Position numbers and translations under genes: made by a program. From a bacterium (GTDB lineage: Bacteria; Desulfobacterota; S145-22), in assembly GCA_029934085.1 (NCBI GenBank), contig JAOZMY010000015.1, positions 1 through 34,403 of the forward strand: 34,403 bases of DNA, in the 5' to 3' direction. Positions 15,503 through 19,542 of this stretch are shown here, piece after piece. Below the pieces are notes generated by a model. It had not been told where the DNA came from and did no database searches. It was given only the letters and a program-made list of their open reading frames with translations. Position 1 is the first letter of the stretch, and each line of letters opens with the position of its first letter.

Positions 15503-15520
15503 CCCTTCAAAAATCCATAA

Positions 15521-15554
15521 AAAAGGCCCGCGGAATCAATTCCGCGGGCCTTTT
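15521..15554. terminator. Bidirectional terminator between convergent proC (+) and the beta-barrel gene (-)
   Basis: AAAA-GGCCCGCGGAA-TCAA-TTCCGCGGGCC-TTTT, perfect 11-bp stem with A and T tracts on either side. Confidence 0.93.
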
Positions 15555-15574
15555 CTTTTCCAGCGTTTCAGCCG

Positions 15575-17761
15575 TTAAAAGGTGTAGTTTAATCCCACGT
15601 TGATGATCCAGAGTTCACCATCCGCGTCATAGAGATAGGGCTCATCATCGGTGTATTTCCGGTAGGTTACCACACCGGCTAATTCGAGGGCCTTATAGAG
15701 CTTCACATTACAGCCCAGCGAGCACTCGAAACGGCTCTGATCCAGATCGGAGTAGTCTGGATACCCCGAGAAATCCATATCAAACGCGGCATCCATGGAA
15801 GGAGATGGATCGTTGAAGGTCGTGTAACCCGCCGGAGGTGCCGACATATGGACACTATCGAAATCCGCATCAGATTTCGTGTATGAAGCATCGAGATTCA
15901 AACTCACCCGATTTGTGGGGGTAAACAGGGCAGAGGCATACAGAACATGGTTTTTGATCTCGTAGTCATTGTCACTATACACAGAGCCAACCTGGCTCGT
16001 GAATGAATGGCCCGCTCACCCACCAAACAAATCAGTGCATATCTGACCGCCGTAACGCTCATACTGATAGTTGTACCCCAACGAAAAGCTCAACTTTTTC
16101 ATGGGCATGAACCAGAAATTGATCCCCGCCATGTAACGATCCGAATCCCAATCGCTGTGATCGTTGTCCTGCCTTTCATACTGGAACAACCCGTTGATCG
16201 ACATGGAAGTCTTAGGCATATAAGTCGCTGAAAGCTTAATCTCGTGCACACTTTCCGGTGAAACCGAACCATCATGCATTCTATTTTCTCTGTTGAAAAT
16301 CTGATAGTACGGCGTCGCAGAATGGAGATTTTCAACTTCTTGGCAGCATCCACCCACGTTCGAGAAGGGATCATCTATGTTTTTATAGGTATATCCGACA
16401 CGATATTTCCATTTCCTGTCAGGCCTACCATTGACCGCTACCTTGAAGGTATGAGTCGTGGTTTCCGTATCTCCAGATCTCGTCACTTCAAACGTATCGC
16501 GATCGATATTGTCGTACTCGTATCCCAAACGAATTGTGGTACAACGGTTCAAACGGTATGCGGCATCCAGATTCCCCGTGATTTCCTCGCGATCTATCGC
16601 CGACTCTCTCGTGAAACTGAAATTATCCGTTACGTGGTACGAAGGGTCCGTCGGAACAAAATGATTCTCAATTGGAACGTAAGCGTTGTCGCTATTGATA
16701 TCGATGTAACGGAACCGACCCGACAAGGTCAGCCTTCGCTTCATGAAATCCTTCGTGAGCCGAAGGTTGTAAACGTGCTGATCCACGTCCAGATCGTTGT
16801 AGTCATTCTCCATAGTCGTGCAAACGAAGGATCCATACGCGGTAGTCTCTGCTGGAAGATCAGCTCTTGCTTTGATCGTATGCATTTTTTTGCTCGAATC
16901 AGGAATCAGGTTCCGGATACTATCCACACCGTGCATGTTTAATCTCCCGGCAAACAACGCTGTTTTCCCAGCTGAGGGAGTCTTTACATCATCATAATAG
17001 ATGTTCTGTGTGCTTGCATCGTTGCTGAAATCACGATCCAAATAGGTATAATCAACCGTAACCACACCAAGCTTCAAAGTCGCACCAACCGTGAGGTCAT
17101 TGGTGGTTTGATCGATCCGGTTCCCATACCCAACAATATGGCAGGGAGTACATTTACCTGTCATAAGGGTTCCCTGCCTCCATCCATGCCGGATTTCATT
17201 TCTCCATCCCCCATGAAATGTCAAGGCGGGAAAAGAGGGCACCGTCACCTTGGCTTTCATCTCGGAATGCTGGCGATAGATTTGATAATTCTTACCAGGC
17301 TGCTGATCCGTGTATTTCCATTTCTGGGCTCCTTCTAATGATCCATGTTTGTCCCAGAAGGGATTGACCACCATTTTCCCATTCAACTCATCTTGAAAAA
17401 GGGGATCGTGACGGGTGCGATGGATAAATTTATTGTAATCCATCTTGAACCTGAAAACCCGGTTAATGTCCAGGTTCACGTTCCCCGCATTGTCGTCTTG
17501 CGTGGTGTAACGCGCATTCAAGTCTATGAAGCTTTTTCCGAACGACCCGGTGTAACCGAACAACCCTGTCGCGCTTCCACCGGTATCGTCATACTCGGCC
17601 ACATTGGTTTTCGTATCATCCGTGCTGGTTGTGTAATATCCAGCGCCCACTTTCAGCCGGTAGGCCTTCTCCGCCTTTTTCTCTTCGGCAAAGGCCACAC
17701 CCAGGGAAGTGACGCAGATAAATACAGCGGCAACCAGCAGGATCAGGGTTGAACGTCTCAT
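15575..17761 (-). CDS. MtrB/PioB-like outer-membrane beta-barrel with in-frame UGA; candidate selenoprotein of 728 residues including Sec (otherwise an interrupted gene)
   Basis: ORF-track pieces 16016..17815 and 15575..15982 lie in the same frame, separated only by TGA (16016-16018) plus 11 sense codons. Start refined to ATG 17761 (MRRSTLILLVAAVFICVTSLGVAFAEE signal peptide, AAGGAGGAGACTC SD). Repeated amphipathic strands; C-terminal ...WIINVGLNYTF ends in Phe as in many OMPs; adjacent to a decaheme cytochrome gene. Confidence 0.8.
15980..16001 (-). promoter_or_regulatory. Candidate bacterial SECIS hairpin downstream of the in-frame UGA
   Basis: mRNA CAC-GAGCC-[AGGUU]-GGCUC-U-GUG: 5-bp apical stem, one U bulge, 3 more bp; loop begins 22 nt after the UGA and contains GGU. 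Confidence 0.55.
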
Positions 17762-17836
17762 GAGTCTCCTCCTTCTCACTGGTGATTGTTTCCTTTTTTC
17801 ATGTGTACTTGACACGATTTTCCTCCGCTTGTGTAT

Positions 17837-18832
17837 TTACCGCGTTAAAGACTTTCCCTGTCCCGGCGTTGACAACGATGGCAGATCCGAGCCATGAATC
17901 TGGCTGTGGCACTGGGTGCATCGTGTTCCCATAACCATCTTCACGCTGTGTCGCTCGGGAGAAACTTTATTCAAGCCTGTCCCCGGCTGTTTTGTCGTGA
18001 AAACAGAGTGGAAATGGAGATGGTGACACTGGAGGCACAGGAACGGTTCGTTCTGTTTCAGCAAGTTATCCGCGACGGTCCCGTGGGGATCGTGGCAGAT
18101 CGTGCAGTCTTCTACCACCGGCGCGTGCTCAAAGGTAAAAGGACCCTGTTTGTCCGCATGGCATTTCCAGCAAAGATCGTTGATCCGCTCTTCCGTCTTC
18201 AAGTTGTGCAAGCTGCTCCCATGGTTTTCATGGCAGTCTGAGCACTTCATCTTTCCTTCACGTACCGGATGGTGAGAGGGATAACTCTCTTTCGCTCGAA
18301 TATCCGCGTGGCACTGATAACAGAGTTCAGGCTCCGCCATCTTCAGCGTTCCCTTGGCCGGATCCTGGTGAACTTTGTGACAATCAACACAGGTCACGTC
18401 ATTGAGGGCATGCTCGTTGCCGCGCCAGTCCATCGTTGCATCGTCGGTATGGCACTGCAGACAGATGGCCGAGGCCTCGCCGGGCGTAATGGCCCCTTCG
18501 TCGCCCACATTGGTGAAGCGGATGATTTTGGAAGTGTCTCCATCATTTTCAATATGGACACTCCCCGGACCGTGACAGGATTCACACCCCGCCTTTCCCC
18601 TCACCTCATAGTCGGCGATCCTGCCATGAATGGTCCCCCTGAAGGACTTAACCTCATCCTCATGACAGTCGGCACAGGAATCGCTTCCCTCATACGTTGC
18701 ACCTTTGATTGCCACAGGCATCTTAATCATCGCCTTGCTCTTCCCCTTTGTAGAGGCGCAAGTCCCCATGACCATCGCCACCGATACAATCAGGGCAAGC
18801 ATCATGAGGGTCTGAATCGTACTTCGCTTCAT
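17837..18832 (-). CDS. DmsE/MtrA-like decaheme c-type cytochrome
   Basis: Ten CxxCH motifs: CADCH, CESCH, CLQCH, CVDCH, CYQCH, CSDCH, CWKCH, CTICH, CLQCH, CTQCH; N-terminal hydrophobic export signal; next to an MtrB-like barrel gene. Confidence 0.93.
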   Translation of the reverse strand: MKRSTIQTLMMLALIVSVAMVMGTCASTKGKSKAMIKMPVAIKGATYEGSDSCADCHEDEVKSFRGTIHGRIADYEVRGKAGCESCHGPGSVHIENDGDTSKIIRFTNVGDEGAITPGEASAICLQCHTDDATMDWRGNEHALNDVTCVDCHKVHQDPAKGTLKMAEPELCYQCHADIRAKESYPSHHPVREGKMKCSDCHENHGSSLHNLKTEERINDLCWKCHADKQGPFTFEHAPVVEDCTICHDPHGTVADNLLKQNEPFLCLQCHHLHFHSVFTTKQPGTGLNKVSPERHSVKMVMGTRCTQCHSQIHGSDLPSLSTPGQGKSLTR

Positions 18833-19272
18833 TGAGTTCCTCCTTCATTTCGCAATGACTAACACCTACTTTGAAATCCTGTAGCAACTACCTTCAAACT
18901 TCTACAAATTAATAAATTAGATTTCCCGTTCACCCCCTTTCTTTTTTCCAGATTTCCCGCCTTTATGGGCACGAAAACCACTTCTCTCACAAAGACAGGA
19001 TATTAAACGAATGCCAAAAATCATTTGAACCAGATTTGTCAATCATTATAGTAAAATTTTTCACAAAAGCAAGTAATTTAATCAAATTATCCGATAAAAT
19101 TTCAATTTTAGATAGATGTTATCAATATAATAAATCGTTATGTTTACTGATATTGAAAGCGATCTTCCGTTCCCGGCTCTCTAATTCCCAGTATGTGTTT
19201 CGAAAGGGGGACTTGACAAAACACCAATTCTATAATAGAGGATAGCGCACCAACAAAAAAGGAGGGAATACG

Positions 19273-19542
19273 GTGGCAAATCATCCATCAGCTTGGAAGC
19301 GCATTCGTCAAAACGAAAAGCGCAGGCTTAGAAATAAATTTTACCGGACTCGCATGAAGACTTTTATCAAGAGGGTTCGTGAGGCGGTCAATGAAAAGGA
19401 CACGGAGCAGGCTGCGGTGCGCTTGCAGGAAGCCTCGCAAATCATCGCGAAAACCGCTTCAAAGGGGGTCATCCATAAGAGAACAGCCGCGAGAAAGATA
19501 TCACGTTTGACCCGTCAGGTTAATGCCTTAAGGGCCTCTTAA
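19273..19542 (+). CDS. rpsT: 30S ribosomal protein S20
   Basis: MANHPSAWKRIRQNEKRRLRNKFYRTRMKTFIKRVREAV...KGVIHKRTAARKISRLTRQVNAL; AAGGAGG upstream; GTG start. Confidence 0.97.
   Translation: MANHPSAWKRIRQNEKRRLRNKFYRTRMKTFIKRVREAVNEKDTEQAAVRLQEASQIIAKTASKGVIHKRTAARKISRLTRQVNALRAS

Follow-up and report, generated by a model that had tools for sequence, protein, structure and literature searches.

The window, a 34,403-nucleotide stretch from a desulfobacterotal draft genome, carries on its minus strand a two-gene operon in which a decaheme c-type cytochrome gene is followed by a gene for an MtrB/PioB-like outer membrane porin (Table 1). An ORF caller reports the porin gene as two open reading frames, of 599 and 135 amino acids. 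Direct reading of the sequence places both in one frame with a single TGA as the sole separator, as the sequence-only reading of this DNA had stated, and the full-length alignment of homologues agrees. The joined frame extends from an ATG at 17761 to a TAA at 15575-15577 and encodes 728 residues with the UGA as codon 582, which is also the precursor length and approximate Sec position that had been proposed. This ATG is preceded by a Shine-Dalgarno sequence and is a better start for the porin than the GTG at 17815 chosen by the ORF caller. No Shine-Dalgarno sequence is present before the downstream 135-aa ORF, and this piece supplies the last barrel strands and the terminal Phe of the porin. 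Its independent translation, already thought unlikely, is ruled out on these two grounds. Reassignment of UGA is likewise ruled out: TGA is the ordinary stop codon of 12 of the 26 genes in the window and the code is therefore standard.

Table 1. Features of the porin-cytochrome operon and their positions in the window
Feature	Position	Strand	Basis or remarks
Predicted Sec-containing MtrB/PioB-like porin, GSU2204 family	15575..17761	-	728 aa, Sec at 582; NF041027 560 bits, PF11854 83 bits
In-frame UGA, predicted to be read as selenocysteine (residue 582)	16016..16018	-	36 near-full-length sequences, that of the window among them, have UGA; 2 have Cys (TGC)
SECIS-type hairpin GAGCC-AGGUU-GGCUC	15984..15998	-	In 36/36 UGA forms at an equal distance from the UGA; stem covaries; absent from both Cys forms
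Single CXXCH heme-c motif C204-T-P-C207-H208	17138..17152	-	Invariant in 36 aligned sequences
Putative N-terminal signal peptide, about residues 1-25	17687..17761	-	Read from sequence; model helix 3-24
Shine-Dalgarno sequence AAGGAGGAG	17766..17774	-	Read from sequence
GSU2203-family decaheme c-type cytochrome, partner gene, 10 CXXCH	17837..18832	-	NF041028 449.5 bits; directly upstream in 38/38 NF041027-type loci
Rho-independent-type terminator ending the two-gene operon	15519..15556	-	17-pair stem followed by a T run

Between the start of the decaheme gene and a plus-strand ORF of 89 amino acids (19273-19542), which by eye resembles ribosomal protein S20, there are about 440 bases (18833-19272) that contain no convincing gene. 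This interval is probably the regulatory region of the operon.

In an NCBIfam scan the porin matched NF041027, 'GSU2204 family CXXCH-containing (seleno)protein', with 560.4 bits against a curated cut-off of 350. The match covers positions 3-580 of the 580-position profile, the end of which falls directly before the Sec. A Pfam scan gave 83.3 bits for PF11854 (MtrB_PioB; gathering score 23), whereas the cut-off of the TIGR03509 subfamily was missed (40.9 bits vs 240). On these profile scores the porin is a member of the wider Pfam MtrB/PioB family that lies outside the stricter TIGR03509 subfamily. The product of the upstream gene matches, in addition to NF041028, the DmsE-type profile TIGR03508 (267.9 bits). 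The family has already been listed among the predicted prokaryotic selenoproteins, as MtrB/PioB family outer membrane beta-barrel protein, in a 2022 review (PMC9312934) and is given as a predicted prokaryotic selenoprotein together with NF041027 in a 2026 review (PMC13188914). The idea of a Sec-containing porin is thus not new, contrary to what the sequence-only reading had implied, and the window adds one member of the family from a further draft genome. This member has the profile match, the single CXXCH, the Sec site and the NF041028 partner in common with the rest of the family and shows no difference of substance from it. Biochemical proof that NF041027 is a selenoprotein was not found in the literature, the family being a computational prediction, and the literature searched contained neither proteomic nor selenium-labelling evidence for a Sec porin.

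Conservation of the UGA codon in homologues

The family search covered 396 genomes of the phylum, with 39 over the cut-off. UGA occupies the column of codon 582 in 36 near-full-length sequences, that of the window included, which come from many families, and also in several partial ones. Two sequences (L035 and L077) have Cys (TGC) at this column. Homologues are 24-81% identical to the window porin and can be aligned over its whole length, similarity being kept downstream of the UGA as the sequence-only reading required of a Sec codon. More distant subfamilies without UGA (e.g. L022, L023, L036, L076 and L083-L085) align poorly at the UGA column. In a 44-row tree the Cys pair is nested beside Sec forms, and the labels need three changes only. 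For the sequence downstream of the UGA, dN was 0.09-0.18 against a dS of 1.3-1.8 in five comparisons, changes being mostly synonymous, and purifying selection is acting on both halves of the gene, that beyond the UGA included. Because this selection extends to both halves and homologues across the whole range of identity align over the full length, the continuity of the frame is not a matter of chance.

Invariant residues are C204, C207 and H208 (36 aligned sequences), H114, G581 and Sec/Cys582. Cys575 is present in 25 of 36 sequences and Cys473 in 20, always together with Cys575. An invariant thiol partner for the Sec was not found among the 36 sequences, some homologues having neither Cys575 nor Cys473. 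A universal resolving Cys near the Sec is thereby ruled out, the CX6U pair being common but not present in all homologues.

A search of genome contigs for related loci gave three close relatives only. The genome of the window contains a second decaheme-porin pair (L104; contig C34, 12258-15578) in which the porin has a CXXCH and no UGA, with CAG at the aligned column. Another Sec-type paralogue is represented at about 17416-18168 of the same contig (L086, 6417-7168) by a C-terminal fragment; this fragment includes the UGA, has no adjoining N-terminal part and is either a remnant or a misassembly. An N-terminal piece of the porin family is found at the start of contig C20. The Cys-type homologue L035 (G050:C87) has an in-frame TGA at codon 569, about 90 residues before the Cys, which may represent a broken gene, an error or another recoding site. 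Lastly, a Sec-type paralogue (L033; G001:C109) has an apparent frameshift near its C-terminus at about 1190-1213, L034 from a related genus being intact.

Evidence for decoding as selenocysteine

The 15-nt hairpin of the window begins 17 nt past the UGA. Its loop appears to resemble the AGGUCU loop to which SelB binds in E. coli fdhF. A per-sequence hairpin search detected, in each of the 36 UGA forms, a stem of 5 bp or more whose apical loop lies 21-23 nt past the UGA and so within the distance of about 16-37 nt downstream that is taken as the criterion for a bacterial SECIS. No comparable hairpin was found in the two Cys forms. Elsewhere in the same gene, in-frame windows that are equally stable make up a median fraction of 0.5%, this figure being 5-14% in a subgroup of about five sequences. 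Pair counting with shuffled and slid controls gave a stem covariation score of 0.329 vs 0.110 for shuffled alignments (0/500), and 28 stem cells were changed on both sides vs 11.1 in controls; the shuffles leave relatedness in, and the result is to be read as support and not as a probability. A scan of the window against Rfam at gathering scores returned no match, the SECIS being established by comparison instead. RNAalifold gave no consensus structure for the 36-row alignment, a result attributed to the stem standing one or two columns apart in different subgroups.

The genome of the window encodes tRNA-Sec (selC; 76.5 bits vs a gathering score of 47), selA (618.6 bits) and selD (379 bits; C117:1966-2892). 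The selD gene has an in-frame TGA of its own and, judged from its sequence, SelD is probably itself a selenoprotein. A search did not find selB in this 94%-complete draft of 170 contigs. Of the four sel genes looked for, selC, selA and selD are present in the draft, and the locus of selB is apparently cut at the end of contig C79. In the two relatives that were read, an HNH-type gene comes after selB, and in the genome of the window this neighbour is present as residues 135-192 only, running off the end of C79 (5113 of 5116). The most economical interpretation is an assembly gap that contains selB, since its usual neighbour is cut at this contig end. Above the cut-off, selB was found in four of five genomes of the same family (G001-G004) and in 360 of the 396 genomes of the phylum, and with selB so widespread a correlation with its presence is uninformative.

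The UGA/Cys column, the conservation downstream of it, the SECIS-like hairpin and the presence of tRNA-Sec, selA and selD all argue for the earlier proposal that the UGA is read as Sec, and on this comparative evidence codon 582 is almost certainly decoded in this way. Were the UGA instead a real stop, the gene being broken or giving two separate products, the two ORFs of the ORF caller and the failure to find selB in the assembly would be as expected. Such a stop is hard to reconcile with a UGA codon whose position is shared by 36 sequences of down to 24% identity, with purifying selection and a conserved hairpin beyond it, or with a downstream piece that supplies the last strands of the barrel together with the terminal Phe and has no Shine-Dalgarno sequence, and we regard it as very improbable. 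A sequencing or assembly error in place of a sense codon, conceivable in a draft assembly, is refuted by the homologues, dozens of separately assembled genomes having the same TGA, and can be dismissed.

The predicted barrel and its relation to known conduits

An AlphaFold2 model of the porin built from 36 sequences (pLDDT 77, pTM 0.72) has 26 strands and an N-terminal helix at residues 3-24. The best fold match in the PDB is 6r2q_B, the MtrB of the Mtr complex (E 1.6e-23, TM 0.66/0.74), which was also retrieved by a sequence profile search. The next fold match has an E value of 4.5e-12, and TonB-dependent receptors come well behind MtrB. Fold, profile match and PF11854 score are all in agreement with the MtrB/PioB assignment originally made from the sequence alone. 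The mean loop length in the model is 20 residues after odd strands vs 3 after even strands. Long loops on the outer side are the usual pattern of such barrels. Because the long loops follow the odd strands, the loop with the CXXCH (201-208) and that with the Sec (580-589) would be extracellular, and both are predicted to face outwards, sidedness being taken from strand parity and loop length only. Two hairpins of the model have longer strands than all others (21+23 and 23+27 residues), and the CXXCH and the Sec are placed at their tips; pLDDT at these tips is below 50, too low for any claim as to a heme-Sec distance. Neither the single invariant CXXCH nor the decaheme partner gene was mentioned in the sequence-only reading.

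The MtrB of Shewanella (6r2q_B), like the window porin as modelled, is a 26-strand barrel with an adjoining decaheme partner of the MtrA/DmsE kind. The two proteins are about 14% identical in structural alignment and differ in that the window porin bears its own CXXCH and Sec on predicted outer loops. A further difference from MtrCAB is that the window operon is without an MtrC/OmcA-type surface decaheme cytochrome. The decaheme gene is directly upstream of the porin in all 38 NF041027-type loci. No other multiheme ORF was found in the window. Of 13 wider loci, 11 have none in the vicinity of the pair, and the other two have further multiheme genes there. A partial parallel is found in the ExtKL/ExtI selenite-tellurite operon of Geobacter, in which a porin-like protein and a predicted Sec c-type cytochrome are likewise encoded in one cluster, although there the Sec is in the cytochrome and not in the barrel and ExtI has no significant homology to MtrB (PMC5877670). 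Expression of GSU2203 and GSU2204 in Geobacter is induced with hematite, 2.68- and 2.36-fold respectively (PMC4070692).

A possible selenium-dependent electron conduit

These observations can be brought together in the following mechanism. SelB, acting on the SECIS hairpin just past the UGA, would deliver Sec-tRNA so that Sec is inserted at residue 582, and the full-length porin would then be exported and fold as the predicted 26-strand MtrB-type barrel. Together with the periplasmic GSU2203-type decaheme cytochrome it would form an electron wire across the outer membrane in the manner of MtrB and MtrA. Homology and operon structure make such a conduit role with the decaheme partner likely, and we hold with considerable confidence that a GSU2204-family selenoprotein porin in an MtrAB-like conduit is the best explanation of the locus as a whole. 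In most lineages no MtrC-type surface decaheme cytochrome is encoded with the porin, and the porin's own c-type heme motif and Sec at the outer hairpin tips would probably constitute an outer redox site, which may pass electrons to, or take them from, an extracellular partner. It is possible, and we suggest it tentatively, that the outward heme and Sec of the barrel together make up a single redox centre at the surface and take the place of an MtrC-type terminal cytochrome, the decaheme-porin pair being in that case a minimal two-gene, selenium-dependent conduit.

The Sec might also be inserted without the barrel being a wire to minerals. Sec is usually a catalytic residue, and in this family both it and the CXXCH are near-universal and placed on predicted outer loops. 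The porin might then reduce or take up a soluble extracellular substrate (such as an oxyanion of selenium, sulfur or a metal, or a peroxide), with the Sec catalytic and the decaheme cytochrome as the electron feed. In the ExtI/ExtKL selenite-reduction cluster of Geobacter, too, a porin-like protein is combined with a cytochrome predicted to contain Sec (PMC5877670). No known reductase catalytic domain was found in the Pfam and NCBIfam scans, however, and the Geobacter genes are upregulated with iron oxide minerals (PMC4070692), and we consider this alternative rather unlikely.

Taking the SECIS covariation, the Cys variants without a hairpin, the heme motif and Sec of the outer loops and the two-gene operon without MtrC together, a catalogue entry is turned into a testable model. 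If the conduit mechanism preferred here is true, the supply of selenium would set a limit on one of the routes along which electrons of these anaerobic bacteria reach minerals or partners, and annotation pipelines that halt at the UGA would lose the end of the barrel.
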